Source of the DNA: a virus
DNA: 29,516 nucleotides
Virus record (IMG/VR): IMGVR_UViG_3300018482_000003
Coordinates: 1 to 29,516 of that record
Direction: 5' to 3' (one strand)
The position numbers were made by a program, and so were the translations under genes. The notes beneath the pieces were generated by a model that was not told the DNA's origin, did no database searches, and saw only the letters and a list, made by a program, of their open reading frames with translations. Shown here in pieces: positions 3,471-29,516 of the stretch (position 1 is the first letter of the stretch; each line of letters opens with the position of its first letter).

Positions 3471-4356
3471 GTTCGCGACGCCGCCGACGCCGGGCAGGCG
3501 CAACCTGGCGGAGGGCATCGCGCGGACGGCGGAGATCCTGGGGTTCCGGACGTCGCTGGGGCCGGGGCTGATGCCGTGGCAGCACGAGGTGAACGCGGTC
3601 GCCACCGAGCTGGACGAGGCGGGGCGGTTCGCTTACCGACAGGTGCTGCTTGAGGTGATGCGCCAGCAGGGCAAAAGCGTGGACGTGCTGAGCATGATGA
3701 TCGCCCGTGGCCTGCGCAGGCCGGGGACGCAGATCGCGTACACGGCGCAGACGGGCAAGGACGCCCGGCACCGGATGATCGACGTGTGGTGGCCGCGGAT
3801 CCGGGCGAGCAAGCTCGCGCCGCTGATTGGCATCCGGAAGGGCAGCGGGTCTGAGGCGCTGCTGTTCGCGAACGGCAGCATGCTGTCGCTGATCAGCGCC
3901 GAGGAGACGTCGGGTCACGGCGAGAACCTGGACCTGGGCGTGATCGATGAGGCGTGGGCGCAGCGGGATGACCGGCTCGAGCAGGCGATGCGCCCGGCGA
4001 TGATGACGCGGGACGCGCAGCTGTGGATCGTGTCGGCGGCGGGGAACGAGAAGTCCTCGTACTTCCAGGGGAAGGTGTTCGCGGCCCGGGAGCGCATCGA
4101 GAACGGCGTTCCCGGGGGTGGCTGCTACGTGAGCTACAGCGCGCCGGATGAGGCGGACCCGGGCGACCCGGCGACGTGGCGGGCGTGCATGCCGGCGCTG
4201 GGGATCACGGTGAGCGAGGAGACGGTGGCGACCGACATGGGCGACATGGACCTGGCCGAGTTCCGCCGCGCCTACCTGTGCCAGTGGCCTGATGTGGCCA
4301 AGCCGGGCTGGGGCGTGATCGGCCAGGACGCGTGGGGCGCGGCGGCGGCGTCATGA
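3430..4356 (+). CDS. Terminase large subunit, ATPase domain (split gene, part 1)
   Basis: A 308-residue frame that packages DNA into the prohead by ATP hydrolysis. It has the deviant Walker A motif RQQGKS at residues 78-83 and the Walker B motif VIDEAW at 171-176, with Asp173-Glu174. An adenine-binding region (MPWQHEVN) precedes them, and a C-terminal stretch (EFRRAYLCQW) leads into the nuclease domain in full-length relatives. Here the frame stops at TGA 4356, which overlaps the ATG of a second frame encoding the nuclease half. Full-length relatives join the two in one polypeptide. The start at ATG 3430 is the first possible one and the initial 20 residues are atypical; no better in-frame start follows before conserved sequence. 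Confidence 0.85.
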   Translation: MPTSRGCSPPCRPRFATPPTPGRRNLAEGIARTAEILGFRTSLGPGLMPWQHEVNAVATELDEAGRFAYRQVLLEVMRQQGKSVDVLSMMIARGLRRPGTQIAYTAQTGKDARHRMIDVWWPRIRASKLAPLIGIRKGSGSEALLFANGSMLSLISAEETSGHGENLDLGVIDEAWAQRDDRLEQAMRPAMMTRDAQLWIVSAAGNEKSSYFQGKVFAARERIENGVPGGGCYVSYSAPDEADPGDPATWRACMPALGITVSEETVATDMGDMDLAEFRRAYLCQWPDVAKPGWGVIGQDAWGAAAAS

Positions 4357-4856
4357 GCGCGCCGGTTGCGTACGGAGCGGCGATCAGCGAGGACCGCCAG
4401 CATGCGTCGGTGGTGTCGGCTTCCCGCTCCGGTGCGGGCAGGGTGCTAGTTGACCTGGTCTTCTACGATCACCCGCGGCTGGTGGTGGCCCGCATGGCGG
4501 AGCTGTCGGCGGAGCGTGACCCGGTGGCGGTGATCGTGAACCCGAAGTCGCAGTCGGGGACGCTGATCAAGCCGCTGGCTGACGCAGGCGTGTGGGTGAC
4601 GGAGTCGTCGGCACCCGATATCGCGGTGGCGCACGGGACGTTCCTGGACCTGGTGGCGGACGGCCAGCTGGAGCACCTGAACCAGAAGCCTTTGACTGAC
4701 GCGGTGCGCGCTGCCCAGCAGCGGCCGCTAGCCGGGGCGAAGGCGTGGGAGCCGCGCCTGGAGACTGATCAGTCGCCGCTAGTGGCGGCGACGCTCGCGG
4801 CATGGGGCTTCCTGGGCTGGGAGCTGGTGTCCGAGCCGACGACGGCAGTGATATGA
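4353..4856 (+). CDS. Terminase large subunit, nuclease domain (split gene, part 2)
   Basis: A 167-residue frame starting at ATG 4353, sharing ATGA with the ATPase frame. It corresponds to the RNase H-like nuclease half of the large terminase that cuts concatemers. Recognisable parts are VAYGAAISEDR at the N-terminus, AVIVNPKSQSG, the long middle helix region, and the C-terminal TDQSPLVAATLAAWG, whose Asp matches a usual metal ligand. In related terminases the first segment carries a catalytic Asp four residues before the EDR-like end; here that place appears to be Ala10. It may work as a separate subunit, by frameshift fusion, or be impaired. The domain call is good; activity is uncertain. 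Confidence 0.8.
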   Translation: MSAPVAYGAAISEDRQHASVVSASRSGAGRVLVDLVFYDHPRLVVARMAELSAERDPVAVIVNPKSQSGTLIKPLADAGVWVTESSAPDIAVAHGTFLDLVADGQLEHLNQKPLTDAVRAAQQRPLAGAKAWEPRLETDQSPLVAATLAAWGFLGWELVSEPTTAVI

Positions 4857-4866
4857 GGAGGTCAGC

Positions 4867-5076
4867 GTGCGCTTGTCTGTCGTGCTGCTGCTGCTGGCCC
4901 TGGCCGGGGTGCTGGGCGGCGGCGCGCTGATCGGCCTGCCCGCCCTGGGCGGCTGCCTGATCTTCGACTCGCTGCTAGTCGGGGCATACGCCTGGTTCCG
5001 CGATGACGGAGCGCGGCCGCCGCAGCAGGGAGACACGACGTTGCATGCCATCTTCGAGAGGGCCCGCGCGTCGTGA
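4867..5076 (+). CDS. Small two-helix membrane protein
   Basis: A 69-residue protein from GTG 4867 with a strong AGGAGG Shine-Dalgarno. Two hydrophobic segments (about residues 3-22 and 24-44) with Gly-rich turns are followed by a charged tail. Its stop overlaps the portal start (GTGA), so it is translated with the head genes. No family was recognised. Small membrane proteins at this position occur in some actinophages without known function. Confidence 0.65.
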   Translation: MRLSVVLLLLALAGVLGGGALIGLPALGGCLIFDSLLVGAYAWFRDDGARPPQQGDTTLHAIFERARAS

Positions 5077-6494
5077 GGGTGGGCGACCGGCTGCTGCGCC
5101 GCTACGGCGACACGTTCTGGGAGGGCCAGGCGTCCGGCGCGGCGGTGCTGATGTCCTCCTACGGCTCACCGGACCGCGAGGCCGTGGTTCCGCAGCTTGC
5201 CCTGGCGGCGTCGGGCGCGTTCACGGGGAGCGCGGTGGCGTTCCCGGCGATCCTGCAGCGGATCATGCTGTTCTCCGAGGCCCGGTTCCAGCTGCAGTCC
5301 GTCTCGGACAAGAAGCTGTTCGGGAACCAGTCGCTGGCGATCCTGGAGCGCCCGTGGCCGGACGGGACGACGGGCGAGCTACTGGCGCGGATGGAGCTGG
5401 ACGTCAGCGTGGCGGGCAACGCCTACATCTGGGATTCCGGCGACGACAGGCTGGTGCGGTGGCGACCGGACTGGGTGACGATCATCTCCAAGGTTGTCGA
5501 CGGGCCGCGGGGGCCGTACCGGAAGAAGGTCGGGTACGACTTCGCGCCGCCGAAGCAGGCGTGGCCGCAGTACGGGGAGCCGCAGACCGTCCCGGCGGAG
5601 GAGGTGGCCCACTGGGCGCCCATCCCGGACCCGCAGGCCGAGTACCGCGGCATGTCGTGGCTGACGCCGGTGCTGCGGGAGGCGCAGGCCGACCAGGCGA
5701 TGACGGTCTACAAGGACGCCTACCTGGCCAACGCGGCGACGCCGAACCTGGTCATCAAGTACAGCCAGAAACTTCAGCCGGGCACGATCGACAGCCTGCG
5801 GGAGCGGGTGACGGCCCGGTACGGCGGGGTGGCGAACGCGTTCAAAACCCTCATTTTGGACCAGGGTGCTGATACGACGGTGATCGGCAACAGCCTGGCG
5901 CAGATGGACTTCTCCAACGTGCAGTCGGCGGGGACGGAGCGGATCCTGGCGGCCTCGCAGGTGCCCCCGGTGCTGGTGGGCCTGGAGCCGCTGCGCGGGG
6001 CTGGCAGGGGCTATCAGGAGTCGATCGTCAAGCTGGCGAACCTGTGGGCGCGCCCGCAGTGGCGGTCGGCGTGCGGGGCGCTGCAGAAGCTGGTGCCGGG
6101 GATCCCGGAACAGGGGATCCGCCTGTGGTACGACACGAGCGACATCGCGGCGCTGCAGGACACGGAGACGAACCAGGCGCAGGTGACCCTGGTGCGGTCT
6201 CAGGCGCTGCTGGTGCTGCGGCAAGCGGGGTACACGCAGGACTCGGCGGTGGCGTTCATCCGCAGCGGTGACCCTGGTCAGCTGAAGGCGGACCTGGCCG
6301 TTGCCGCGCCTGCGCTCCCGGGCGGGGGGACTCAGCACATGCTTCCGCAGCCTCCCGGGTCGGGGCCGACGCCGGGCGTGACGCCGCTTCCGGCGGGGTC
6401 GATAGCCCGGCTGCCGGTCGGGACGACGTCGGCGGGTGACGGCGGTAATCACACGCGGCCAGCGAGCCGCCCGGCGGCGGTGCGGAGGCCCTGA
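5073..6494 (+). CDS. Portal protein (HK97-like)
   Basis: A 473-residue protein that forms the dodecameric ring through which DNA enters the head. The start is GTG 5073, overlapping the previous stop. Typical HK97 portal features are the N-terminal region with paired acidic and hydrophobic strands, MELDVSVAGNAYIW (about residues 108-121), the PDW and VAHWAP segments, YRGMSWLTPVL, and the long helix followed by the loop ILAASQVPPVLVGLEPL. A Pro/Gly-rich disordered tail occupies the last 60 residues. Length and placement between terminase and protease fit the family. Assembly with the next protein (one-base TGATG overlap) is likely. Confidence 0.92.
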   Translation: MRVGDRLLRRYGDTFWEGQASGAAVLMSSYGSPDREAVVPQLALAASGAFTGSAVAFPAILQRIMLFSEARFQLQSVSDKKLFGNQSLAILERPWPDGTTGELLARMELDVSVAGNAYIWDSGDDRLVRWRPDWVTIISKVVDGPRGPYRKKVGYDFAPPKQAWPQYGEPQTVPAEEVAHWAPIPDPQAEYRGMSWLTPVLREAQADQAMTVYKDAYLANAATPNLVIKYSQKLQPGTIDSLRERVTARYGGVANAFKTLILDQGADTTVIGNSLAQMDFSNVQSAGTERILAASQVPPVLVGLEPLRGAGRGYQESIVKLANLWARPQWRSACGALQKLVPGIPEQGIRLWYDTSDIAALQDTETNQAQVTLVRSQALLVLRQAGYTQDSAVAFIRSGDPGQLKADLAVAAPALPGGGTQHMLPQPPGSGPTPGVTPLPAGSIARLPVGTTSAGDGGNHTRPASRPAAVRRP

Positions 6495-7009
6495 TGACCG
6501 TGACGCGGTTCAACCCGAACCACGCCGCGCCCGGCTCGGCGACAGGCGGCCAGTTCACCTCCGGCGGCAGCGGCGGCGGCAGTTCCAAGGGGAAGTCCGG
6601 CGGCGGGAAGGCTGCCTCGGCGCACCAGGCCCACGTCGCCCACGTGCAGCATGAGCAGCACCAGAAGTACCTCGCGAACCACCCCGACACCCCCGGTGCC
6701 CGCGCCGAGCGCAAGAAGGCCCTCCTCGACCAGGCGCACGCCGACCGGGAAAAGGCCGCAGCGCTGGAAAAGCAGCTCAAAGGGCTTCAGCAGCAGGAAG
6801 CCAAGGCCAAGGCGGCCGCTAAGCACACCAAGGCCGTCGTCGCCAACGCCAAGGGCGGCGCCGTCCAGCGCCGCACCGCCGCGCACAAGGCCGCCACGGC
6901 GCACAAGAAGCACGAGAGCCTCAAGGCCCGGATCAGCAACGTCCAGGACCAGATTGCCGGGCTGCTCGATAAGGCGAAGTCCCTTGAGGCGCAGGCGGCG
7001 AAGCTATGA
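6494..7009 (+). CDS. Coiled-coil, scaffold-like phage protein
   Basis: A 171-residue protein. Residues 1-24 (RFNPNHAAPGSATGGQFTSG) carry the Asn-Pro/Gly-Gly-Gln-Phe motif found at the start of many phage head-region proteins. A Gly/Ser linker follows, then a long Lys/Ala/Glu/Gln-rich segment (residues 70-171) that should form coiled coil. No cysteines or enzymatic motifs are seen. Between portal and protease, such proteins may act as assembly scaffolds or be packaged inside the head; in this phage the capsid protein also carries its own N-terminal helical domain, so a separate scaffold may not be essential. The stop overlaps the protease start by ATGA. Confidence 0.62.
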   Translation: MTVTRFNPNHAAPGSATGGQFTSGGSGGGSSKGKSGGGKAASAHQAHVAHVQHEQHQKYLANHPDTPGARAERKKALLDQAHADREKAAALEKQLKGLQQQEAKAKAAAKHTKAVVANAKGGAVQRRTAAHKAATAHKKHESLKARISNVQDQIAGLLDKAKSLEAQAAKL

Positions 7010-8127
7010 CGTCGCACACCGCGACGGCCAGCACGGTCCACGAGCCGATCGGCTCCCCGTCCGGCCCGGGCCCGATGGCCGAATGGGAAGCGGACAAGGC
7101 GGGATCAGGGAAAGCGAGGCGGTCGGCAATGGCTGACAGTAAGCCGTACGGCGACGTGAAGTACGCCGACCCCAAGAACGGCAAGTATCCGCTCGACACT
7201 GAAGCGCGCATCCGCGCGGCGTGGTCCTACATCAACAAGCCCGGGAACGCCTCGCAGTACCCCATGAACGGCGTGACTCTCGCCGAGGTTAAGGACCGCA
7301 TTAGGGCGGCCATGAAGAGCATCGGAGCCGACGTGGAAGACGACAACGGCAGCAACGCGAGCGCCTCCCGGTCGGTGCTCATGCGCGATTACCCGCTGGA
7401 AGACCTGCACATCATCCGATCCGGTGAAGGCGCTGACGGCCGCACGATGGAGGCCTTCGCCGCGGTATTCAACACCGAGACTGAGATCAGGGACCGCGAA
7501 GGTCACTATCTCGAGATCATCGAATCGTCTGCGTTCAACAAGCGGCTATCGGACCTCCAGCGTTCCCGGCAGGGATTCGGTCAGGTCAAGGTGCTGTTTA
7601 ACCACGGTCGCGACATGGAGGGCGCTCCGGCGGAGCGGTTCCAGATGCCGGTCGCGGTGCCGGTGTCGATCGAGGGCCACCCGCGAGGGCTGCTGACGCG
7701 CAGCCGGTTCGTCAATACCCCGCTCGGCGACGAGGTCCTGGAACTGGTGCGCTCCGGCGCGGTGACCGCGATGTCATTCCAGGGGCGCATTATCCGCTCA
7801 ACGCCACAGCTTGACCGCTACGGCCGACATCGTCCCGATTCGACAGGGCGGCTGACCACCGTGCGGCGCACGGAGCTGGGCCTACATGAGTTCGGGCCGG
7901 TCCTGTTCCCTGCCTATGAGGGCGCCGGAATCAACGGCGTCCGCATGTCCACTCCCGGAGCGTGGGAGCCGGACGACGAAGAGAACGGCACTTCCCCCGA
8001 TGGCGAAGCCGCCGCCGGTGAGCCGCTCAGCCGCGATGACGGCGAGCACTCGGCCCGGCACCACCAGCACAGCCTGTACGTGCTCAATTCGCAAGAGCGG
8101 CGCGCGCGGGCCGGGCTGACCTGGTAA
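7006..8127 (+). CDS. Prohead protease with N-terminal DUF6582 domain
   Basis: A 373-residue protein. Residues about 46-112 match the DUF6582 type (KPYGDVKYADPKNGKYPLD and AAWSYIN). Residues about 125-330 are the HK97-type (S78) prohead protease that trims the capsid protein and scaffold during maturation. The catalytic His is probably His200 in LFNHGRD and the nucleophile Ser257 in AMSFQGRI, with FGPVLFPAY closing the fold. The Asp/Glu-rich C-terminal tail of about 60 residues may be removed by self-cleavage. The ATG at 7006 overlaps the previous stop; a second ATG about 42 codons in, just before DUF6582, is an alternative start. The capsid gene follows 16 bases later. Confidence 0.9.
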   Translation: MTSHTATASTVHEPIGSPSGPGPMAEWEADKAGSGKARRSAMADSKPYGDVKYADPKNGKYPLDTEARIRAAWSYINKPGNASQYPMNGVTLAEVKDRIRAAMKSIGADVEDDNGSNASASRSVLMRDYPLEDLHIIRSGEGADGRTMEAFAAVFNTETEIRDREGHYLEIIESSAFNKRLSDLQRSRQGFGQVKVLFNHGRDMEGAPAERFQMPVAVPVSIEGHPRGLLTRSRFVNTPLGDEVLELVRSGAVTAMSFQGRIIRSTPQLDRYGRHRPDSTGRLTTVRRTELGLHEFGPVLFPAYEGAGINGVRMSTPGAWEPDDEENGTSPDGEAAAGEPLSRDDGEHSARHHQHSLYVLNSQERRARAGLTW

Positions 8128-8143
8128 CCAGCCGAAAGGACAC

Positions 8144-9601
8144 GTGGCGATGGCCACCCTGAAGGAGAAGCAGGAGGAGATGGCCCGCATCAAGGCCGAC
8201 CTCCAGCGGATGGAAGCAGACGACACAGTCACCGAGGAGGACTCCGGCGACCTGCGCGACACCCTCGTCGAGCGGTGGGAGCAGCTCGACCGCGAGTGCG
8301 CCCCGATCATCGAGCGAATGGAGAAGGTCCGCGGCATCACCCGGTCCGGCGCTAGCCCCGCCAACCGCGAGGACGGCGCCGACAGCGGGCCGCGCGCCCC
8401 GGAGTTCATGCAGCGCCTCGACCCGTTCGCCGACCTGGACGCCGTCCGCGGCGGCATGGTCCGCCGCGCCGACCTGATCGCCCGGGCGCTGAACGCGGTG
8501 GAGAACGACAACCGGCAGGGGCGGCTGCCCGACGACCACGCCGAGGCCGCCGTGCAGAAGGCGAAGTGGCAGCCGAACGTGGCCCGCCACATGCTGCTGA
8601 CCGGCTCCGACGACTACCAGGACGCGTTCCGCACGTACCTGGAGGACCCGATGGGCGCGGGCCGGGAGGCGGCCCGTGCGCTGTCCCTCGGCACCGGCTC
8701 GGGCGGGTTCCTGCTGCCGTACGTGCTCGACCCGACGATTGTGCTCACCTCCAACGGCAGCACGAACCCGTACCGGCAGCTAGCCAGCGTCAAGCAGACC
8801 ACGTCGAATGCCTGGCAGGGCGTGAACTCCGCGGGCATCACCGCGGCGCTGCTGGCCGAGGCGGCGGCGGCGTCGGATGCGTCGCCGACGATCGGGCAGA
8901 TCCAGATCTTCCCGCAGAAGTTCGCCGCGTGGGTCTTCGGGTCCTTCGAGGAGCTCGGCGACACCAACTTCGGCGAGCAGCTCCCCGGCCTCATCGCCGA
9001 CGCCAAGGATGTCGTGGAAGAGACCCAGTTCGCCGTCGGCACCGGCGGCACCGGCAACAGCGCCGCCCCCAACGGCGTCCTGCACGCGCTCGGCTCCAGC
9101 CAGCGCGTCGCCGCCGCCGAGGGCACCGGCGGCGCGTTCACCGGCACCGCGGCCGGGCAGGCCGCGAGCAACGTCTACAACCTCCAGGCGGCGCTCGGCC
9201 CCCGGTTCCGCAAGTCGAAGTCGGTGGGCTGGGTTGCCAACATCACCAACATGAACAAGCTCCGCAACCTCGACCAGTACGGCGGCTCGGCGTTCTGGGC
9301 GAACTTCGGGGACGACACCCCGGAGCAGCTGCTGGGCAAGCCGATCCACGAGTCGCCGTCGCTGACCACCAGCACGGCGACGGCCACCGGAACCGGCTCG
9401 GCCGTGCTGGTGTACGGCGACTGGTCCAAGTTCTACATCGTGGACCGCGTCGGGATGTCGATGATCTACGAGCCGATGATCACCGGCACCGGCGCGAACG
9501 CCAACCTCCCGACCGGCCAGTCCGGCTGGCTGGCCTACTGGCGTACAGGGTCGGACGTCGCCACCGCGGCGGCGTTCCGCTGGCTCGCGAACGGCAGCTG
9601 A
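8144..9601 (+). CDS. Major capsid protein (HK97 fold)
   Basis: A 485-residue protein, the shell subunit. GTG 8144 is preceded by GAAAGGA; an ATG two codons later is equally possible. The first 110 residues are charged and helical (delta or scaffold-like domain) and would be removed by the protease upstream. From about residue 180 the HK97 fold is recognisable: GTGSGGFLLPYVLD, the E-loop region, QIQIFPQKFAAWVFGSFEEL, a long spine helix, NITNMNKLRNL, and the C-terminal DWSKFYIVDRVGMSMIYEP. Expression should be high. It is followed by three bases and then a small Pro-rich protein. Confidence 0.94.
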   Translation: MAMATLKEKQEEMARIKADLQRMEADDTVTEEDSGDLRDTLVERWEQLDRECAPIIERMEKVRGITRSGASPANREDGADSGPRAPEFMQRLDPFADLDAVRGGMVRRADLIARALNAVENDNRQGRLPDDHAEAAVQKAKWQPNVARHMLLTGSDDYQDAFRTYLEDPMGAGREAARALSLGTGSGGFLLPYVLDPTIVLTSNGSTNPYRQLASVKQTTSNAWQGVNSAGITAALLAEAAAASDASPTIGQIQIFPQKFAAWVFGSFEELGDTNFGEQLPGLIADAKDVVEETQFAVGTGGTGNSAAPNGVLHALGSSQRVAAAEGTGGAFTGTAAGQAASNVYNLQAALGPRFRKSKSVGWVANITNMNKLRNLDQYGGSAFWANFGDDTPEQLLGKPIHESPSLTTSTATATGTGSAVLVYGDWSKFYIVDRVGMSMIYEPMITGTGANANLPTGQSGWLAYWRTGSDVATAAAFRWLANGS

Positions 9602-9603
9602 CC

Positions 9604-9825
9604 GTGAGCACGCCTTCGGCGCATGGCAACCCGGCCAGCTCGGCCGCCCAGGGCAGCGCGGGCTCGTTCCCGGCTGACAGCAGCGCGGACATCCCCGTGG
9701 TGTCCGGGCTGCCGGCCCCCCCGGTGGAGGCGGGGTCGCCGGTGTTCCCGGAGATCCGCCAGGTGCGGCCCGTTCCCCAGATGGGGATGGGATACCGCGA
9801 GGCCGCTGAGGGTGACCCGTTCTGA
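9604..9825 (+). CDS. Small Pro/Ser-rich phage protein
   Basis: A 73-residue protein from GTG 9604, two bases after the capsid stop, in a frame distinct from capsid. It is low-complexity, Ser/Ala/Pro-rich, with no cysteine and no domain; the end (QVRPVPQMGMGYREA) is the most structured part. It may be a linker or minor head protein, or act with the methyltransferase that follows. Its TGA overlaps a CTG that seems to start the next gene. Confidence 0.6.
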   Translation: MSTPSAHGNPASSAAQGSAGSFPADSSADIPVVSGLPAPPVEAGSPVFPEIRQVRPVPQMGMGYREAAEGDPF

Positions 9826-10421
9826 GCTGGGAGGATGTCGCGGCCGGGGCAGTCCGCGACTTCGGGGCGCTGCAGAAGCCGGCTGAGCTGGCCATGCTGC
9901 TGCAGCGCCTCGCCGACTGCCGGCCCAGGGTGATCGTGGAGATCGGGTCGGACGCGGGCGGGACGCTGCGGGCATGGTCGCAGCTGCCCGGGCCCCCGCG
10001 CGTGATCGGCGTGGACCTGCCGGGCGGCCCGTACTCCTCCGGCGCCGAGCTAGACGCGCACGGCGCGGTGATGGTGATCGGCAACAGCCACCTGAAGGCG
10101 ACCCGGGAGCTTGTCCGGCAGCAGCTGGCGGGCGAGCTAGCAGACGTGCTGTTCATCGACGGCGACCACACCTACGAGGGCTGCAAGGCCGACTACCTGG
10201 CGTACAAGCGGCTGGTGCGGCCGGGCGGCCTGGTGGTGCTGCATGACATCGCCCCGCATGACAACCCGAGCGTGGGGGTCCGTTACCTATGGCAGGAGAT
10301 CGCGTGCCGCTACCCGTCCCAGGAGATCATCACGGACCCGGATCAGAGGTGGGCCGGGATCGGCGTGGCCGAGATGTCGCCGCTGCCGGCTCCCGGGCCG
10401 ACTCTGCTGGCCGCGCGCTGA
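9822..10421 (+). CDS. SAM-dependent methyltransferase (class I, CmcI/Methyltransf_24-like)
   Basis: A 199-residue protein if it starts at CTG 9822, which shares CTGA with the previous stop. The first in-frame ATG, at 9894, would remove 24 residues including LSWEDVAAGAVRDF, which resembles the N-terminal helix of relatives. Motif I is EIGSDAGG (residue 40 onward), binding SAM. A VLFIDGDHTYEG motif (Asp113) is the post-I acidic loop, and VVLHDIAPHD supplies the metal/substrate site typical of sugar- or small-molecule O-methyltransferases. It directly precedes a glycosyltransferase, so a job in methylating a sugar added to virion proteins is likely but inferred. Confidence 0.85.
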   Translation: MSWEDVAAGAVRDFGALQKPAELAMLLQRLADCRPRVIVEIGSDAGGTLRAWSQLPGPPRVIGVDLPGGPYSSGAELDAHGAVMVIGNSHLKATRELVRQQLAGELADVLFIDGDHTYEGCKADYLAYKRLVRPGGLVVLHDIAPHDNPSVGVRYLWQEIACRYPSQEIITDPDQRWAGIGVAEMSPLPAPGPTLLAAR

Positions 10422-11416
10422 ACTTCATCGGCCTGGCGGCGGGGGCTGACGGCTCCGGGTACTACCGGATGTACCTGCCGTTCAAGCACCTCGCGCAGAA
10501 CAGCCGGCACCTGGCGATGATCCCGCCGCCGGGGCGCACGCCGCCGATGCCTACGCCGGGCGACATGGAGGGCGTAGACACGTTCATCGCGCAGCGGCCG
10601 GTCGGGCCGATGGGGATGCGGACGTGGGACACGCTGGAGGGCCATGTCGCGCGGGTGTACGAGGTCGATGATGACCTGCTGGCGGCGGACCCGAGCGCGC
10701 TGCCGCACCTGACGGACCCGCGGGTGAAGGACTCGATCACCTACATGCTGGGGCGTAGCGAGATGGTGACGGTGTCGACTCCGTACCTGGCCGGGATCGT
10801 CTCGGAGTGGGCCGGTAACGTCCGCGTGCTGCCGAACTGCGTGAATGGCGACCTGCTCGACCTGCGGCGCCGGCATGGCCGCGCCGGCCGCGTGACGGTG
10901 GGCTGGGCCGGGGGGCAGTCGCACCTGCCGGACTGGGCGCACGCGGGTGAGTGGATCCGGCCGGTGCTGCAGCGGCACGCGGCTACGGTGGATTTTCACT
11001 TCGTGGGGGCGGATTACTCGCCGCTGCTGCATCACCCGTGCCTGTGGACGGGCTGGGATGACGACATCTGGACGTACTACCGGGCGGTTGACTTCGACAT
11101 CGGCCTGGCGCCGCTGGCTGACATCCCGTTCAACCGGTCCAAGTCGCACCTGAAAGCGCTGGAGTACGCGGCGCTGGGGATCCCGGTGATCGCGACCGAC
11201 ATGGAGCCGTACCGCGAGTTCGTGACCGACGGCGTGACCGGCTACCTGGTGTCAACGCCGGAGCAGTGGGACAAGCGGCTGACCGAGCTGGTAAATGACC
11301 GGGCGGCGCGCGAGGAGATGGGCGCGGCGGCGAAGCGGCGGGCGGCGGAGTTCACGATCCAGGGCAACTGGCACCTGTGGGAATCGGCTTACGTGGAGGC
11401 GGCAAATGGCGCGTGA
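10418..11416 (+). CDS. GT-B fold glycosyltransferase (group 1/GT4-like)
   Basis: A 332-residue protein if it starts at CTG 10418, again a CTGA overlap; the beginning LNFIGLAAGADGSGYYRMYL looks like a genuine N-terminus, whereas upstream GTG/ATG codons in frame give low-complexity Arg-rich extensions. The C-terminal domain has the nucleotide-sugar-binding block KALEYAALGIPVIATD, then PYREFVTDGVTGYLV, as in GT4 enzymes, and a final helix. The YYRMYL and VYEVDDDLL segments near the N-terminus match group-1 phage glycosyltransferases. It probably transfers a sugar to capsid or fibre proteins encoded in the same operon. The donor and acceptor cannot be read from the sequence. Confidence 0.85.
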   Translation: MNFIGLAAGADGSGYYRMYLPFKHLAQNSRHLAMIPPPGRTPPMPTPGDMEGVDTFIAQRPVGPMGMRTWDTLEGHVARVYEVDDDLLAADPSALPHLTDPRVKDSITYMLGRSEMVTVSTPYLAGIVSEWAGNVRVLPNCVNGDLLDLRRRHGRAGRVTVGWAGGQSHLPDWAHAGEWIRPVLQRHAATVDFHFVGADYSPLLHHPCLWTGWDDDIWTYYRAVDFDIGLAPLADIPFNRSKSHLKALEYAALGIPVIATDMEPYREFVTDGVTGYLVSTPEQWDKRLTELVNDRAAREEMGAAAKRRAAEFTIQGNWHLWESAYVEAANGA

Positions 11417-11615
11417 GATCAGGCTTCAGGTCACCCAGCCCTATCACGGGCCGGGCGGCGAGCTGCTGTTCGAGCCGGGGCAGCAGTTCCCGCAGGATGC
11501 TGACCTGCCGGAGGACTTGCGGATTGCGCCGGTCATCGTCGAGGTGGAGGACAAACCCGCTGAGGCGCCGGCGCCAGCGAAGGCGGCCAAGCCTGCTAAG
11601 GGCGACGCTTCCTGA
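11406..11615 (+). CDS. Small hypothetical phage protein
   Basis: A 69-residue protein starting at ATG 11406, overlapping the end of the glycosyltransferase gene by 11 bases. The first 45 residues look like a small beta-rich fold (REIRLQVTQPYHGPGGELLF). The rest is a Glu/Pro/Ala/Lys-rich tail typical of flexible ends. Similar short proteins are found among actinophage head-region genes, without known function. Stop and next start overlap by TGATG. Confidence 0.6.
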   Translation: MAREIRLQVTQPYHGPGGELLFEPGQQFPQDADLPEDLRIAPVIVEVEDKPAEAPAPAKAAKPAKGDAS

Positions 11616-12175
11616 TGCACGCCTCGGCGATGGCGTTCGCCGTCTCGGCGCTCACTGAGCAGGACGTGGCCGGCAGGCATGTGCTTGAGGCCGGATCGAT
11701 GGACGTCAACGGCTCGGCCCGGCCGCACGTCGAGGGCCTGCGCCCCAGGTCATACGTGGGCACTGACATGCGGCCGGGGCCGGGCGTGGACGTTGTCTGC
11801 GCTGCCGAGCATCTCTCGCGAACGCAGTGCGCATATGGCGTGGTGATCTCTACGGAGATGCTGGAGCACGCATCCGACTGGCAGGCGGCGATGCGAGGCA
11901 TGATCAATGCCCTCGGCCCGGGGGGCCTGCTCGTGCTGACCACTCGCTCCGAGGGATTCCCGCTGCACGGCTACCCGGATGACCACTGGCGGTTCTCCGT
12001 GGAGGCCATGGACGCGATCGTGAAGGCGGCGCGGCTGGACGTGGAGCGCCTGGAGGCTGACCCGGACCCCGCGAGCCCGGGCGTGTTCGTAAAGGCGCGC
12101 AAGCCGTTCGGCTGGTCATGGCCGGATGTTCAGGATGCCTGGGATCAGGCGGGAGTGACGGCGATGCCCAAATGA
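11615..12175 (+). CDS. SAM-dependent methyltransferase (Methyltransf_11-like)
   Basis: A 186-residue protein starting at ATG 11615 within TGATG. It has HVLEAGSMDVNGS (motif I variant), an acidic loop YVGTDMRPGPGVD (motif II) and VVISTEMLEHASDW, the characteristic block of class I methyltransferases acting on small molecules. Gly-rich GPGGLLVLTTR follows, then HWRFSVEAMD. The C-terminus is short and basic. It is the second methyltransferase flanking the glycosyltransferase and is probably part of the same sugar-modification set; protein or nucleotide methylation is an alternative. Confidence 0.8.
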   Translation: MHASAMAFAVSALTEQDVAGRHVLEAGSMDVNGSARPHVEGLRPRSYVGTDMRPGPGVDVVCAAEHLSRTQCAYGVVISTEMLEHASDWQAAMRGMINALGPGGLLVLTTRSEGFPLHGYPDDHWRFSVEAMDAIVKAARLDVERLEADPDPASPGVFVKARKPFGWSWPDVQDAWDQAGVTAMPK

Positions 12176-12321
12176 CTGAGCCAGTCGGCTGGCAGGTGCT
12201 TGACCCTGACGGGAACGTGGTCGCGTCGGGGCCGGTGACGGTAGCGGAGATGGCTGCGGAGATCGGCGGCGTGGCCGGAGAGGACGGAGATGTCGGGAAT
12301 CGACCAGGGGATGGTCAGTAA
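12172..12321 (+). CDS. Very small hypothetical protein
   Basis: A 49-residue protein from ATG 12172, which overlaps the methyltransferase stop by ATGA. The sequence (GWQVLDPDGNVVASGPVTV) looks like a short beta-hairpin pair and is acidic towards its end. It overlaps the next gene by about 32 bases in another frame. No domain is known to me; coding character and stop-start coupling support it. Confidence 0.5.
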   Translation: MTEPVGWQVLDPDGNVVASGPVTVAEMAAEIGGVAGEDGDVGNRPGDGQ

Positions 12322-12718
12322 CATCCTGAACGCGACGACGCCGACCGGCGCGTCCGGGGCGCCCGGGTCGTTCAGCGCGGTGGGCGGCTCGGCGATGAAG
12401 GTGCGGCTGAACAGCACCGCGAGCACCGCGTCAGCGGCGGGGACGGAGCTGACCGGCACCGGGTACACGACGGGCGGCACCGCGGTCCCCGCGGCGTCGG
12501 CGGCATCCAGCTCGGGCAGCGCCGTGACCCTCCCGGCGTCGTCGGCCCTGAGCTGGACGAACGGCTCCGGCGGCTCGTGGTCGATCGTGTCCTTCGACCT
12601 GAACAGCAGCGGCGGGACGCGGACGTGGTTCGGGAACTTCAACGGCCAGCCGATCAGCATCGCGAACGGCAACACCTTCCAGATCGCCGTTGGCGGCATC
12701 TCGATCTCGCTCTCATGA
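12290..12718 (+). CDS. Phage surface/decoration-like protein
   Basis: A 142-residue protein with ATG 12290 after GGAGAGGACGGAG. It is Ser/Thr/Gly/Ala-rich with alternating hydrophobic positions, suggesting a beta-sandwich. The last part (RTWFGNFNGQPISIANGNTF followed by a short hydrophobic strand) is recurrent in actinophage proteins of unknown structural role. The high Ser/Thr content and the adjoining glycosyltransferase make it a candidate glycosylation target, which is inference. It may be a head-decoration or fibre subunit. Confidence 0.6.
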   Translation: MSGIDQGMVSNILNATTPTGASGAPGSFSAVGGSAMKVRLNSTASTASAAGTELTGTGYTTGGTAVPAASAASSSGSAVTLPASSALSWTNGSGGSWSIVSFDLNSSGGTRTWFGNFNGQPISIANGNTFQIAVGGISISLS

Positions 12719-12740
12719 GCCACTGACCTAAGGAGTTCCC

Positions 12741-13289
12741 GTGCGCCTTCCCATCGTCGGCCCGCTGACCCCGCTGCACGTCGCGGACGGCGCGGCGTTC
12801 ACGACCTTCACCACGTTCCAGGACGTCTCCCCGTCGCCTCAGCTGGTGATCCCGCAGCAGATGATGGACGTGGGGATGGAGCTGTTCATTTTCGCGAACG
12901 GCGAGTTCAGCACGACGGGCACGCCGACGCTGGCGATCGGCTTCTGGTTCAACGGCGCTGCCGGGGCGGCGCCGACGTCGATCCTTGCGCAGACGACGGC
13001 GACCACGACTGGCTCGGGCGCGGCGGCGTGGCCGTGGGAGGCGTGGTGGCGCGGCAGGCTGCGCGGCATCGGCGCGTCGGGCAGCTTCAAGGGCACCGGC
13101 ACGCTGCACCTGGGCACCAGCCTGACTGCGATGGCCGCCCCGATCCCGATGCCGACGACGCAGGCGCTGCGGACCGTGACGGTGGACACGACGGCGAACC
13201 GGGCGATCGGCGTGGGGGCCGCGTGGGGCACCAGCTCGGCGTCGAACTCGATCACCACCTACAACCTGATGGCCTGGGCCGCCTCCTGA
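12741..13289 (+). CDS. Phage structural protein, beta-rich
   Basis: A 182-residue protein from GTG 12741 with AAGGAG upstream. The sequence is made of hydrophobic/Thr-rich strands (AAFTTFTTFQDVS, GTPTLAIGFWFNG, TLHLGTSL) and a Trp-rich loop (AWPWEAWWRG). Such proteins occur in groups of two or three between capsid and connector or near the tail fibres in actinophages, and are thought to lie on the virion surface. No catalytic motif was recognised. Confidence 0.6.
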   Translation: MRLPIVGPLTPLHVADGAAFTTFTTFQDVSPSPQLVIPQQMMDVGMELFIFANGEFSTTGTPTLAIGFWFNGAAGAAPTSILAQTTATTTGSGAAAWPWEAWWRGRLRGIGASGSFKGTGTLHLGTSLTAMAAPIPMPTTQALRTVTVDTTANRAIGVGAAWGTSSASNSITTYNLMAWAAS

Positions 13290-13312
13290 CCCTCTCCTGA
13301 GAGGGGACGCCG

Positions 13313-15571
13313 ATGGCGTCGCACAACGCCGGCACCACGGCGACCCTCGGGCAGTCCGCCCACACCATCGCGTTCTCGTTCACCGTCCCGGCCGGGGTGG
13401 CGACGGGGGACGTGATGATCGTCTCCGTCAACACGTTCAGCTTCCCGCTGAGCGGCCCGGCGACGTCCACCCCCACGTCGGGGGGCGGGTCGTGGACGGC
13501 GGTCGGGCCGCTGGTCGCCGCGCAGGACGGCACCGCCGGGGTGTTCGCCACGGCCTGGTGGCGGGTCGCGACGGCGGCCGACCCGGGCAGCACGTTCACG
13601 ATGTCGTGGACGGGCGGCGTCGGCGGGACCGATGGCTTCTGGTGGACCGCCACCCTGGACTCCTACACCGGTTTCTGGACGCCGGACCCGATCGCGCAGT
13701 CGATAACGCCGACGTCGGGCGCGCAGACGGCGGTAGGAGCCTGCCCGTCGGGGACGTCGCTGCGGTCAGGCTCGTGGGTCGTCCAGCTGGGGCCGATCAC
13801 GCCGAACTCCAGCGGCACGATCACCGGCGTGCCGTCGGGGATGACGCAGCGGCAGCTGTCCAACGGCAACAGCGGCGTCTCCAATGCCTCGGCCGACTCG
13901 GGCGCCAGCGTCGGAGCCGCGGGCACCGCGATCGGCGGCGGCTCGTTCACCTCGTCGAATGCCACCGATAACTGGTGGGCTGAGTGGACGATCGAGCTGG
14001 CCACCGTCAGCGCGCCCGGCCCGCCGGTGCAGGCGCCTACCGTCGGCCCGCTGATCGCCCCGCACCCGCTGTGGACTGAGGCGCTGCTGGGCGAGGCGTG
14101 GCAGCGGGCGGACTGGCAGGCGCAGGGCGTTGCCGACCTGACGGTGGGCTTCTCGTCGACCTCGGGCGGCATCGACACCTGGAACGTCACCAGCCCGTGG
14201 AACGGCGGGACGACGCAGCACATGCGCGTGCTGGCGCCGACGGCGCCGAACGCGAACTACCCGCACGCGTTCCTCATCATGCTGCCGGTGGACCCCGACC
14301 AGGACACCACGTTCGGCGACTCGATCGGCACCGTCCAGGGCCTGGGCGCGCACAACGCCTACAACCTGACGTGCGTGCAGCCGGGCTACGCGCCGGCAGC
14401 CGGGACCGGGCCGTGGTTCGGTGACAACCCGCTCGACCCGTCGATCTCGCAGGAGAAGTTCACGCTGCTGCTGGCGGCGTGGATCCGGGCGAACCTGGCC
14501 ACGACGGGCACGGAGAAGGTGTACCTGATCGGGTTCTCCCGGTCGGGGCTGGGCGGCCAGTTCCTGCATTTCCGTCATCCGGACGTGTTCGCGGCCGTCG
14601 CGTCGTGGGACAGCCCGCTCATGATGGCCGACTATGACGGCACCGATCCCACGAACGGTTCGTCGATCGGCGGCTCCCCGGCTAACGTCTTCGGCACGTC
14701 GGCGTCCTTCGTGACGAACTACCAGCTGGCGCCGCACCTGGCGGGCTGGCAGGCGACGGGCCAGTGGGCGGTCAACCGGATATGGCTGGGCCTCGGCCCG
14801 GCCTTCCCTGCGGATCCCCCCGCCTATGACGCGGCGCTGACGAGCGCGGGGATACCGCATTCTTACGGGTTCAGCAACACGGGCGAGTCGCACGCGTGGC
14901 ACTCGGACTGGGTGGCGGCGGCGCTGGCCGCGATCATCCCGTCGAACTGGTCGCAGGCCGCGACGGTGCTGCCGCAGCAGGTACCGCATCCGCTGCTGCC
15001 GTACCTGCTGGACATTGCCACGGTGCGGCTGGACCCCGGCCTGGACGGGTCGGTGATCCAGGCGACGGCGGCGCTGTCCGGCGCGGGCGCCGTCACCGCC
15101 CTGGCCGTCCAGGGCGCCGGGGCGGCGAGCGCGGGAGCCGGGTCGCTGTCAGCCCTTGCCGTGCAGCAGGCAGGATCGGCGGTGGCCGGGGCCGGGAGCC
15201 TGTCGGCCCTCGTCGTCCAGCAGGTGACGGCGACTGCGGCGGGCGCCGGGTCGGTCACCGCGTCAGCGGGAGGCGCCGAGCAGGGAGTGGCGGCGGCGGC
15301 GGGCGCGGGAACCGTCTCGGCGGCCGGAACGCTGGCCGTCCCCGCGGCAGTCGCCGGGGCCGGGAGCGTGCTGGCGGTGGCGACGGTCCTGGCGGGCGCG
15401 CAGGTCACCGGAGGCGGCTCGGTCACGGCGCTAGCTGTCCAGGCGGCGCTGGCTTCCGCTGCCGGGGCTGGCGCGGTCGCGGCGTCCGGGGCGGAGCGCG
15501 GGCCGTTCACCGTCGGGGTCCTGACCGCCTCCACCAGCTCCGGCATTAACACGTCGACGACGAGTCCGTGA
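13313..15571 (+). CDS. Fibre-like protein with central alpha/beta-hydrolase (esterase) domain
   Basis: A 752-residue protein in three parts, with GAGAGGGG before the ATG. Residues 1-235 are a Thr/Ser/Gly-rich beta structure with the SFTVPAGVATGDVMIVS signature of phage surface proteins. Residues about 240-560 look like an alpha/beta hydrolase: the nucleophile elbow is GFSRSG with Ser409, and a C-terminal GESHAWHSDW supplies His527. Residues about 585-735 are Ala/Gly-rich repeats built on GAGSVTALAVQ-like units of about 20 residues. It could be a receptor-binding or depolymerising fibre that removes acyl groups from host glycans or lipids. The family assignment of the hydrolase is moderately sure; the substrate is unknown. 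Confidence 0.72.
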   Translation: MASHNAGTTATLGQSAHTIAFSFTVPAGVATGDVMIVSVNTFSFPLSGPATSTPTSGGGSWTAVGPLVAAQDGTAGVFATAWWRVATAADPGSTFTMSWTGGVGGTDGFWWTATLDSYTGFWTPDPIAQSITPTSGAQTAVGACPSGTSLRSGSWVVQLGPITPNSSGTITGVPSGMTQRQLSNGNSGVSNASADSGASVGAAGTAIGGGSFTSSNATDNWWAEWTIELATVSAPGPPVQAPTVGPLIAPHPLWTEALLGEAWQRADWQAQGVADLTVGFSSTSGGIDTWNVTSPWNGGTTQHMRVLAPTAPNANYPHAFLIMLPVDPDQDTTFGDSIGTVQGLGAHNAYNLTCVQPGYAPAAGTGPWFGDNPLDPSISQEKFTLLLAAWIRANLATTGTEKVYLIGFSRSGLGGQFLHFRHPDVFAAVASWDSPLMMADYDGTDPTNGSSIGGSPANVFGTSASFVTNYQLAPHLAGWQATGQWAVNRIWLGLGPAFPADPPAYDAALTSAGIPHSYGFSNTGESHAWHSDWVAAALAAIIPSNWSQAATVLPQQVPHPLLPYLLDIATVRLDPGLDGSVIQATAALSGAGAVTALAVQGAGAASAGAGSLSALAVQQAGSAVAGAGSLSALVVQQVTATAAGAGSVTASAGGAEQGVAAAAGAGTVSAAGTLAVPAAVAGAGSVLAVATVLAGAQVTGGGSVTALAVQAALASAAGAGAVAASGAERGPFTVGVLTASTSSGINTSTTSP

Positions 15572-15584
15572 GAGGGGGTAAGGG

Positions 15585-16454
15585 ATGCGTTACCCGAACG
15601 GCCAGCCGGTGCGCGTGTCCACGACGGTCCGTGACCTGTCCGGGGCGCTGGCCGCCCCCGGCGCCCTGACCCTCACGGTCAAGAGGCCGGACGCGACGAC
15701 CCAGGACTACGCCTCCCCGTCGGCTGACTCCACGGGGAATTACCACCAGGACGTCCCGGCAACGGACCTTAGCCAGCTGGGCCACTACCAGTTCAAGTGG
15801 GTAGCGACCGGTACCGGGGCCGGCGTCTCCGTCGGCGAGTTCGACGTCTACGACCCGTTCGAGGTCCGGGTGCTGAGCCGCCAGGACGCGAAGGTCATGC
15901 TCGCCATCCCGGCGGCGACGACCACGGATGACGAGGAGATCGACGTCTGGCTGGCCAGCATCGAGTCCGGCCTGGAGCGGTTCACGGGCGGCCCGGTCGT
16001 CAGTCGCACCTTCACTGAGCGGTGCGAGCTAGACGGCTCCCACTGCGTCCTCCTCGTCCGGCAGCGGCCCCTCGTGTCGGTCACGTCTATCGTGTCCGTC
16101 GCGTCGGGCTCGGCGATCGACATCAGCGCGGGGCTGGACATCGACGCGAACGCGGGCACGATCCGCACGAAGCTCGGCACCCCTTTCATCGGCCCGTTCT
16201 ACGCCTACCGGCCCGCGATGACTGTTACCGGCACGGCTGGCTGGGGGACGGCGGTCCCGGCCGCGTTCAGCGGGTTCGCGCGGATCGTCATCCAGCACCT
16301 GTGGAGTAACCGGCGGGGGCCGGTGTCGATGCCGATGGGCGGGGGGCAGCTGGTGACGCCGCCGTGGCTGGGGTTCGGGATACCGAACGCGGCGCTGGAG
16401 CTGCTGAACGGCAGCCAGGACGGGATTCCGTTCGCGGTCGAGGCGTACGTCTAG
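15585..16454 (+). CDS. Head-tail connector (gp6-like) with N-terminal Ig-like domain
   Basis: A 289-residue protein with GAGGGGGTAAGGG before the ATG. Residues about 1-90 form a beta-sandwich resembling an Ig-like or carbohydrate-binding module (SGALAAPGALTLTVKRPD to GEFDVYDPFEV). Residues about 95-280 resemble HK97 gp6-type connectors: helix-rich DDEEIDVWLASIESGLERFTG, the loop RPLVSVTSIVSV, and FARIVIQHLWSNRRG. Connectors close the portal after packaging and join head to tail. The usual position is right after the capsid gene; here 6 kb of cargo intervenes. Its TAG lies on a CTAG shared with the convergent gene on the minus strand. Confidence 0.75.
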   Translation: MRYPNGQPVRVSTTVRDLSGALAAPGALTLTVKRPDATTQDYASPSADSTGNYHQDVPATDLSQLGHYQFKWVATGTGAGVSVGEFDVYDPFEVRVLSRQDAKVMLAIPAATTTDDEEIDVWLASIESGLERFTGGPVVSRTFTERCELDGSHCVLLVRQRPLVSVTSIVSVASGSAIDISAGLDIDANAGTIRTKLGTPFIGPFYAYRPAMTVTGTAGWGTAVPAAFSGFARIVIQHLWSNRRGPVSMPMGGGQLVTPPWLGFGIPNAALELLNGSQDGIPFAVEAYV

Positions 16455-17223: not shown

Positions 17224-17236
17224 GGAGGTGGTGCCC

Positions 17237-18304
17237 GTGAGGTGGCTTGTTGTCCACCCTGGTTTAGGCCCCAACTTCTCTGTCGCGGATATGCATAATG
17301 GCTGGTCAGAGGCCCTTAGAAACATGGGCGAGCAGGTCATGGAGTACAACCTTGACCGAAGGTTGTCATTCTTCGACTACGCCCTGGTCCCCGACGAGGA
17401 CGCCGACCCCGACGCCGACGGCAAGCGCCCGGTCAAGAAAGCCTTCACCTTCGAGCAGGCCACCGAGCTGGCCGCCGATGACATGCTCGGCGCGTGCTTC
17501 CGCTGGTGGCCTCACGTCGTCCTGCTGGTGAGCGCGTTCTTCACGCCGCCGTTCGTGCTGGAGGTCATCCGCTCGCGCGGCATGAAGGTGGTCATGCTGT
17601 TCAGCGAGTCGCCGTACCAGGATGGCGCGCAGCTGGCCATGGCCAAGTTCGCCCACGTGTCGCTGGTGAACGACCCGGTGAACCTGGCCGCCTACCGGGA
17701 CGCCAGCGAGGTCGCCGAGTACATGCCGCACTCTTACCGGCCCGCGGTCCACTTCCCGGCCAGGCCGGGGGCGCGGCGCAAGCACGATCTCGCGTTCGTC
17801 GGGTCCGGGTTCCAGTCGCGGATCGAGTTCTTCGAGGCCATGCGACTAGACGGCCTGGACGTGGCGCTCGCCGGCTTCTGGGCCGGGCTCGCGCCGGAGT
17901 CGCCGCTGCGCCCGTACCTGGTCACCGATGCCGACGAGTGCCTGGACAACGCGAAGACGGCGGCGCTGTACCGGCAGGCGCGGACGGGCATCAACTTCTA
18001 CCGCCGCGAGGCCGAGGAAGCACACCAGGGCGAGGGGTGGGCGATCGGCCCCCGCGAAGTCGAGCTGGCCGCCTGCGGCACCTGGTTCGCCCGCGACCCG
18101 CGCCCCGAGTCCGACGAGCTGTTCCCGTTCCTCCCCGCGTTCAGCGGCCCCGAAGAGGCGGGCGGGCTCATCCGGTGGGCGCTCGCCAACCCGGCCAGGC
18201 GCGCGGCGGCAGCAGCCAGGGCACGGCAGGCGATAGCTGACAGGACGTTCGAACACTCGGCCCGGCGGCTGCTGGGGCTGCTCGGCCAGCTAGGAAAGGA
18301 ATGA
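17237..18304 (+). CDS. CgeB-like glycosyltransferase
   Basis: A 355-residue protein. Three GTG codons (17228, 17231, 17237) are possible; the last sits 8 bases after GAGGAGG and is chosen. The N-terminal Rossmann half begins MRWLVVHPGLGPNFSVAD. The C-terminal half has GPREVELAACGTWFARD, PESDELFPF and a final helix with ARARQAIADRTFEHSARRLL, the arrangement of the CgeB/Glyco_trans_1_2 group. It sits between tail-completion and tail-tube genes and is followed immediately by the tube gene. The likely job is adding sugar to tail protein; donor and target are unknown. Confidence 0.82.
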   Translation: MRWLVVHPGLGPNFSVADMHNGWSEALRNMGEQVMEYNLDRRLSFFDYALVPDEDADPDADGKRPVKKAFTFEQATELAADDMLGACFRWWPHVVLLVSAFFTPPFVLEVIRSRGMKVVMLFSESPYQDGAQLAMAKFAHVSLVNDPVNLAAYRDASEVAEYMPHSYRPAVHFPARPGARRKHDLAFVGSGFQSRIEFFEAMRLDGLDVALAGFWAGLAPESPLRPYLVTDADECLDNAKTAALYRQARTGINFYRREAEEAHQGEGWAIGPREVELAACGTWFARDPRPESDELFPFLPAFSGPEEAGGLIRWALANPARRAAAAARARQAIADRTFEHSARRLLGLLGQLGKE

Positions 18305-18305
18305 C

Positions 18306-18731
18306 ATGGCACGCCACCACGGCCGCAATGGCCGCATTTACCTCCAGGCGGTCAACGGCTCCGGCGTCCCGTCGCCGCTGCCCTTCCAGGCGAGCTGGAG
18401 CATCAACCAAGCCACCGACCGGCAGGACGTGACAGCGTTCGGCGACGGGAACAAGGTGTTCGTCGCCGGACTACCCGACTCCTCCGGCGACTTCGGCGGC
18501 TTCCTGGACGACGCGACGTCGCAGACGTTCGTCGCGGCCACCGACGGCCTGAGCCGCAACTTCTACCTGTACCCGGACGTGGTGGCCAACCCGAACAACT
18601 TCTACTGGTTCGGCCCGATCCTGGTGGACGGAAGCGCTGACGGGGCTGTCGGCGGCCCGGCCAACTTCAAGGCGACGTGGAGCGCTGCCGGGCCTATTAA
18701 CCGGTACACCCCCCTGGGCCTGAACACCTGA
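18306..18731 (+). CDS. Major tail (tube) protein
   Basis: A 141-residue protein with GAAAGGAATGAC before the ATG. It has the features of a compact phage tail-tube subunit: NGRIYLQAVNG at the start, ASWSINQATDRQDVTAFGD with the conserved DxT(A)FGD-like loop, SGDFGGFLDDA, NFYLYPD, and a final strand NFKATWSAAGPINRYT. Hundreds of copies form the tube. The small size and absence of an Ig-like extension are notable but acceptable. The TGA overlaps the next ATG (TGATG). Confidence 0.82.
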   Translation: MARHHGRNGRIYLQAVNGSGVPSPLPFQASWSINQATDRQDVTAFGDGNKVFVAGLPDSSGDFGGFLDDATSQTFVAATDGLSRNFYLYPDVVANPNNFYWFGPILVDGSADGAVGGPANFKATWSAAGPINRYTPLGLNT

Positions 18732-28786: not shown

Positions 28787-28846
28787 ATGGACGGTGAGCA
28801 GCCCGTCATCCCCCGTATGCGTTGTCCCGTCAACGACCGGGACAAC
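28780..28846. promoter_or_regulatory. Two adjoining palindromes over the cas1 start
   Basis: AACGCATA (28780-28787, covering the cas1 start codon) is exactly inverted in TATGCGTT (28816-28823), and GTTGTCCCG (28821-28829) is exactly inverted in CGGGACAAC (28838-28846). They lie in the divergent region between cas1 and the array and could bind a regulator of either. Confidence 0.45.
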
Positions 28847-29514: not shown

Positions 29515-29516
29515 CC

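Follow-up and report, generated by a model that had tools for sequence, protein, structure and literature searches.

The question raised by the locus described here is on which molecule two methyltransferases and a glycosyltransferase act when a phage encodes them between its major capsid protein and its head-tail connector. The locus lies in the virus record IMGVR_UViG_3300018482_000003, whose 29,516 bases were analyzed as a whole and are referred to below as the window, with gene positions following the numbering of the whole stretch. Downstream of the gene of the HK97-fold major capsid protein (8144-9601, plus strand; Phage_capsid 1.5e-31, phrog_10), and on the same strand, are found MT24 (9894-10421), a predicted class I S-adenosylmethionine (SAM)-dependent O-methyltransferase of the Methyltransf_24/RMNT_CmcI type, GT1 (10418-11416, scanned as 10430-11416), a predicted GT-B (group 1) glycosyltransferase, and MT23 (11615-12175), a predicted SAM-dependent methyltransferase of a family other than that of MT24. 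These are followed by the genes of three Ser/Thr-rich proteins, S1, S2, and S3, and by that of the connector, or adaptor (15585-16454; phrog_442 1.8e-21). In the model that we consider likely, the enzymes would make up a module of the head operon for virion glycosylation, in which GT1 would place a sugar on a virion protein, MT24 and MT23 would O-methylate that sugar, a second glycosyltransferase, GT2 (17228-18304, plus strand), would serve the tail tube, and S1-S3 would stand apart.

Genes were called with a codon-model caller built for this analysis and the proteins were scanned with Pfam and PHROGs, which bore out the coordinates, gene order, and gene kinds that an initial annotation had given for positions 9604-15571, including the two methyltransferases around a glycosyltransferase, all three of which exceed their Pfam cut-offs. 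MT24 matches Methyltransf_24 with 49.5 bits (cut-off 26.3) and RMNT_CmcI with 27 (cut-off 23.2), its profile retrieves O-methyltransferases and CmcI from the PDB, and its residues D89, D91, H92, H117, and D118 are kept in 12 of 12 aligned homologues. GT1 matches Glycos_transf_1 (PF00534) with 44.8 bits (cut-off 26.4), PF13692 with 44.9 (cut-off 27), and phrog_7162 (2.9e-49); a long C-terminal block is conserved in all six sequences of its alignment, and its profile finds group 1 GT-B glycosyltransferases in the PDB, PimA among them. The assignment of MT23 draws on Methyltransf_23 (30.6 bits, cut-off 27), phrog_32762 (2.5e-21), its alignment, and profile matches to UbiG-type O-methyltransferases in the PDB, and that of GT2 on PF13524 (Glyco_trans_1_2; 50.7 bits, cut-off 25). 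Family-conserved residues are intact in the window enzymes, and the residues kept in such alignments are those expected to bind metal or substrate; the activities named here are those predicted from the protein families. GT1 has no ATG start, the candidates being a CTG at 10418, in a CTGA overlap with the stop codon of MT24, or a GTG at 10349. The overlap without ATG, with the two open reading frames (ORFs) in different frames, is common to the window and the related contig L002, and translation may begin at the CTG, at the upstream GTG, or by frameshifting into GT1.

Related viral contigs were gathered with the GT1 profile (the best 80 of 109) and with the capsid profile (the best 80 of 81), and all of them were mapped with hidden Markov models (HMMs) grown from the window proteins. 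Dereplication reduced the 80 capsid-selected loci to 67, of which 35 had at least 5 kb of downstream sequence or a visible connector, the other 32 being dropped for short sequence; the 106 GT1 loci were reduced to 79, and the 59 of these with 1.5 kb on both sides were used for methyltransferase and fusion counts. A glycosyltransferase and a methyltransferase are both present in 32 of the 35 capsid-selected contigs, in the capsid-connector interval or, in contigs with no visible connector, 3′ of the capsid. These 32 consist of 21 contigs with GT1, each having at least one methyltransferase match, and 11 with a protein of about 630 residues that joins a GT4 glycosyltransferase to an FkbM methyltransferase (GT4-FkbM). 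The window-derived HMMs find a methyltransferase in 31 and GT1 in 21 of the 35, and at least two methyltransferase domains are present in 19. The recurrence in 32 of 35 dereplicated contigs indicates that the arrangement is more than chance, and a one-off insertion of cargo was rejected on the same ground. Capsid and connector are closest together in the three contigs devoid of the enzymes (L131, L136, and L140), at 813, 1398, and 258 bp, respectively; in the remaining 20 of the 23 contigs that have both landmarks the gap amounts to 2.5-9.9 kb, and the head-operon position is kept even where capsid identity falls to about 50%. The initial annotation had described the usual capsid-connector adjacency as interrupted here, which is correct relative to classical phages, as capsid and adaptor are one small gene apart in Gordonia phage Mcklovin and three small genes apart in prophiGD02-2. 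With the contig L085, in which the capsid and connector profile matches are less than 300 bp apart, these two cases show that capsid and connector do adjoin in the usual way outside this lineage. Within the lineage, however, the interruption is the rule.

The glycosyltransferase and the methyltransferase are not only neighbors but are joined in one ORF in 18 of the 35 capsid-selected contigs, namely as MT24-GT1 in six (about 530 residues), as MT23-GT1 in one (525 residues), and as GT4-FkbM in 11. The GT4-FkbM proteins are similar over their full length to L089:12039-13952, the one on which a Pfam scan recognized a group 1 glycosyltransferase and an FkbM methyltransferase. Of the 59 usable GT1-bearing loci, 9 have a fusion, with MT24 in 7 and with MT23 in 2. 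Since domain order and methyltransferase family differ among the three fusion kinds, and since the GT1 profile, at its threshold, does not reach the glycosyltransferase part of GT4-FkbM, the three are read as separate events. The window itself is unfused, with MT24 and GT1 as overlapping ORFs in different frames.

That the sugar itself would be methylated is suggested by these fusions together with an analogue from Paramecium bursaria chlorella virus 1 (PBCV-1). There, as related in PMC9614988, A064R, which combines a methyltransferase with two glycosyltransferase domains, and then A061L methylate O-2 and subsequently O-3 of the terminal rhamnose of the capsid glycan, with A061L acting only after A064R has done so. 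The likeness is one of architecture only, in that one glycosyltransferase is accompanied here by two unlike methyltransferases, one of which is fused to it in relatives. The single-polypeptide fusion of the PBCV-1 type is thus seen in relatives and not in the window, in which MT23 is present as the second, free methyltransferase gene. PBCV-1 differs in being a eukaryotic algal virus that carries an N-glycan on another capsid protein and whose first domain in A064R, according to the same source, is of the GT-A type.

The conserved placement in the head module, the three fusion kinds, and additional sugar enzymes in the contig L009 argue for enzymes directed at the virion. In L009, the region from capsid to tail genes (4742-9800) is an enlarged sugar island that contains a fused methyltransferase-glycosyltransferase, a DegT/StrS aminotransferase (1.4e-88), an RMNT_CmcI protein (8.3e-32), a GNAT acetyltransferase, and a Glycos_transf_2 protein. 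Such enzymes make up the tool kit for an N-acylated amino sugar, and the added genes point to sugar chemistry. In the proposed sequence of events, a nucleotide sugar of the host would be the donor with which GT1 glycosylates a virion protein, the likeliest one being the major capsid protein, whose gene precedes that of GT1; MT24 and MT23, one after the other, would then add O-methyl groups to that sugar to create a cap. GT2 would probably perform the equivalent job for the tail tube. Its gene lies directly upstream of that of the major tail protein (18306-18731, plus strand; phrog_10528), a possible acceptor, and among 21 GT2 loci the major tail protein gene follows within 47 nt in 17 and at 435 nt in one, with no match in three; the 21 include three redundant pairs, of which L012/L117 and L009/L141 each represent one contig counted twice and L016/L017 are near-identical. 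The purpose of such a modification, by analogy, may be shielding or an altered surface.

The same enzymes could in principle act on sugars of the host surface, leading to superinfection exclusion or receptor masking, in which case their place in the late operon would reflect timing only. Enzymes acting on glycolipids of the bacterial surface are found both among group 1 glycosyltransferases and in the RMNT_CmcI family, PimA is among the PDB matches of GT1, and hydrolase-like domains in S3 and its counterparts suggest that the phage does deal with host surface chemistry. We nevertheless consider this unlikely, given a head-operon position that persists across such divergent capsids, the tight adjoining of GT2 to the major tail gene, and the lack of a membrane segment in GT1, MT24, and MT23, for which the largest 19-residue hydropathy values are 0.84, 0.89, and 1.12, respectively (GT2 has one hydrophobic stretch, of 1.88). 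A serotype-converting Gtr system, with a membrane-embedded glucosyltransferase and its GtrA/GtrB partners, is not supported either, since no match to the Gtr families was found among the window proteins scanned and GT1 has no membrane-like stretch. A very improbable further explanation is that of moron-like cargo with no fixed partner, which would modify, e.g., phage DNA or a small molecule. Sequence family does not fix the substrate, and distant GT1 relatives do occur away from capsid genes, but the conserved position and the three fusion kinds are difficult to reconcile with such cargo, and no modified-nucleotide gene was recognized among those 32 ORFs of the window that were scanned with Pfam or PHROGs, the record being a fragment.

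The initial annotation had further proposed that the phage builds and methylates a glycan on its own head or fiber proteins, and had placed three Ser/Thr-rich surface-like proteins at 12290-15571 in the same device. All three are indeed rich in these residues: S1 (12290-12718, plus strand) contains 30.3%, S2 (12741-13289, plus strand) 22.5%, and S3 (13313-15571, plus strand) 20.2% Ser+Thr, corresponding to the 99.6th, 93.2nd, and 88.4th percentiles among the 1435 proteins with 120 residues or more that were called in the window and its relatives. S1 bears a weak likeness to the gp80 fiber of podophage GP4 (PF23140), at 15.3 bits and an E of 0.027, which is below the cut-off of 27, so that family membership is not supported; its profile gives a single PDB match, at 0.063 only. 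The model of the Thr-rich S2 (predicted local distance difference test score, pLDDT, of 83.6) is a β jelly roll, for which the nearest viral models are uncharacterized phage proteins, with tail-spike/depolymerase proteins, among them that of KP34, ranking lower. Its nearest solved folds are TNF-like lectins (BC2L-C with a middling Z of 8.3, 3.1 Å over 123 residues), followed by legume lectins (Z 7-8); Foldseek finds no PDB match for this model at an E of 0.001, and S2 has no match in phage records. S3 consists of a Ser/Thr-rich N-terminus (residues 1-235), a domain of about residues 236-560 with a GFSRSG motif, and C-terminal Ala/Gly repeats. By sequence, the central domain resembles lipases (E 1.4e-4 against PDB lipases by phmmer), staying below the Pfam cut-offs of Abhydrolase_1 (16.1 bits vs 25.8) and Esterase (15.6 vs 22) and thus outside the curated families. 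The structural model of S3, made from three sequences, has a mean pLDDT of 34; within this failed model the Ala/Gly repeats at residues of about 585-725 appear as regular short strands of a solenoid-like kind (pLDDT about 30-68).

It could be argued that these fiber-like proteins, rather than the capsid, are what the enzymes modify. They are direct neighbors of the enzymes in the window, they have the highest Ser+Thr content, homologues of S1, S2, and S3 exist in 13, 28, and 5, respectively, of a set of 150 sequences that contains the window, and an enzyme of broad specificity could act on the capsid and on S1-S3 alike. Against this stand seven contigs in which the capsid is followed by a methyltransferase and GT1 and then by the connector, with no S1-S3 homologue in between, showing that the enzymes do not need S1-S3 and form a module separable from that of the surface proteins. 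The large protein preceding the connector is also swapped among relatives while the enzymes persist, being lipase-like in the window and apiosidase-like in L091; L002 has an apiosidase-like protein 3′ of the enzymes, with no connector seen there, and L019 has a protein with fn3 and GH16 domains in the same capsid-connector gap (8376-9497). Nine such large proteins were scanned with Pfam, of which two are apiosidase-like, six have no match, and one gives coiled-coil noise only. S1-S3 as the acceptors are hence quite unlikely, and they are probably a separate, exchangeable host-contact module with a lectin-like fold and lipase, apiosidase, or GH16 signatures, which would cleave carbohydrates or lipid esters and would lie downstream of the enzymes by happenstance. 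Of the annotation's proposal, the part concerning enzymes for the phage's own virion is thus retained, in view of the placement, the fusions, and L009, and the inclusion of the Ser/Thr-rich proteins in one device is not, in view of the seven contigs without them and their exchangeability.

Several observations have to be set against a capsid-directed module. A match to either methyltransferase profile is missing within 2.5 kb in 18 of the 59 dereplicated GT1 loci, no capsid match is seen within 6 kb in 14 of the 49 GT1 loci with enough upstream sequence, and 5 of the 16 GT1 loci suited to the comparison lack GT2. Many of the capsid- or methyltransferase-free loci hold what, by sequence, are distant GT1 relatives, and the GT1 family also lives elsewhere. 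The capsid profile was built partly from contigs found with GT1 (three of them), which is a mild bias. Furthermore, we infer the capsid as the acceptor from gene position alone, and no insertion sets the enzyme-bearing capsids apart from the enzyme-free ones: the Ser/Thr counts of the capsid loop tested overlap (5-13 in enzyme-bearing capsids vs 2-9 in eight enzyme-free controls), and a Ser/Thr insertion peculiar to enzyme-bearing capsids found no support, as no column block is private to them. Modification of this virion is predicted from its genes, and so are the chemistry and the acceptor.

Comparable arrangements have been described for mycobacteriophages. According to PMC4351075, gp35-gp38 of Corndog (Cluster O), in the interval between portal and protease genes, comprise an O-methyltransferase, two glycosyltransferases, and a putative N-acetylglucosaminyltransferase, for which modification of the capsid was proposed in 2015; the infected cells contained these enzymes, which were not among the proteins identified in virions, and a striking scarcity of capsid peptides was noted. 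The resemblance to the window lies in an O-methyltransferase beside glycosyltransferase genes within the head cluster, whereas the Corndog cluster is situated between portal and protease and not 3′ of the capsid, and no fusion is described in the passages of that paper on the cluster. The remark of the initial annotation that paired methylation next to a capsid gene is less established therefore needs tempering. In Che8, Corndog, and Myrna, phage-encoded glycosyltransferases are responsible for glycans on the capsid and the tail tube (Freeman et al. 2023, as cited in PMC12363180 and PMC11256854), and it is the genes of these two proteins that GT1 and GT2 border here; the passages concerned in the two citing accounts say nothing of methylation. 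GT1 and GT2 are likewise phage-encoded, as both score above their Pfam cut-offs and the record that encodes them also contains terminase, portal, capsid, and tail genes. In the uncultured freshwater podophage ctQWt234 (MW202801.1, L152), the capsid-stabilization interval (4991-9654) contains genes for an Fe-S oxidoreductase, a glycosyltransferase, PhyH, a methyltransferase, a NodB-like protein, and a second glycosyltransferase that matches GT1 (29.9% over 53%), but this is an unrelated podophage with other enzymes and no annotated glycosyltransferase-methyltransferase fusion. A literature search found no description of the present arrangement after a phage capsid gene, most subscription journals being outside its coverage.

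The genes of the window as a whole follow the plus-strand order of terminase, portal, protease, capsid, the enzyme and surface-protein stretch, connector, GT2, major tail protein, and tape measure, and with a weak GH25-like lysin candidate, also on the plus strand; the record has no end repeats. The initial annotation had overlooked, besides GT2 and the lipase-like domain within S3, a 73-residue ORF at 9604-9825 (plus strand; a codon-model call) and sm, a conserved small protein of 69 residues at 11406-11615 (plus strand) that is usually found 3′ of GT1 in the closer relatives, neither of which has a Pfam match. The large terminase is encoded by two overlapping ORFs in different frames (3430-4356 and 4332-4856), and its halves lie in different ORFs in 21 of the 55 sequences that have both, the window included. 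The terminase profile matches are 23-46 nt apart in L002, L004, L005, L014, L099, L100, L107, L108, and L112 and 154-384 nt apart in the other split sequences, which may reflect a split gene, frameshifting, or an intron; a decaying prophage was rejected as the explanation, given the recurrence. Capsid genes are interrupted as well, by a group I intron in L006 (538-913; RF00028, 85 bits) and by 256-958 nt in L009, L016, and L050, and an Rfam scan of the interruptions in L009 and L016 gave no match. At 27507-29516, on the minus strand and directly after the last phage genes, type I-E-like cas2 (PF09707, 7.2e-31) and cas1 (PF01867, 4.1e-15) are found, with a CRISPR array (29120-29512) in which at least seven repeats recur at a period of 61 and which reaches the end of the record. 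This segment may be the host flank of an integrated phage or may represent adaptation genes that the phage carries; the viral contigs yielded no confirmed close relative of Cas1, and the spacers have no convincing match to the collected loci.

Capsid relatives in isolated-phage records number 64, all below 60% identity, from phages of Gordonia (43), Mycobacterium (15), Rhodococcus (5), and Mycolicibacterium (1), and more distant capsids occur in two actinobacterial genomes, which, together with a G+C content of about 70%, supports an actinobacterial host. As regards homology to the glycosyltransferases Che8 gp110 and Corndog gp38, a tblastn search with GT1 returned 41 phage records, with no Mycobacterium among the organism names listed (10 of 11), and GT2 had no match in phage records at 1e-5; no relative of GT1 was confirmed among genome contigs by its profile, nor one of the connector among viral contigs by its query.

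A more far-reaching version of the proposed module, which we put forward as speculative and rather improbable as a whole, is that soil actinophages of a large and mostly uncultured lineage have repeatedly evolved, 3′ of the capsid gene, a device that gives each capsid protein a doubly O-methylated, capped sugar, convergent with chloroviruses, together with a transferase for the tail tube, and that the main host-contact proteins, the lectin-like S2 and the exchangeable hydrolase S3, have entered the head cluster, with adhesins and enzymes then being borne by the head or neck as well as the tail tip. In the window, none of the genes 3′ of the tape measure encodes another protein as large as S3. 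Virion glycosylation in phages is otherwise known from a few mycobacteriophages; if the model is right, it would be normal in a broad soil lineage and tied to methylation, and its genes would hold a constant position in the head operon, which would make it predictable from sequence. The pairing of the genes of GT1 with the capsid and of GT2 with the tail tube would then provide a testable rule for assigning enzymes to the proteins that they modify. The convergence of phages and an algal virus on such fusions would, moreover, suggest a shared benefit of capped sugars, e.g. resistance to glycosidases or lectins in soil.

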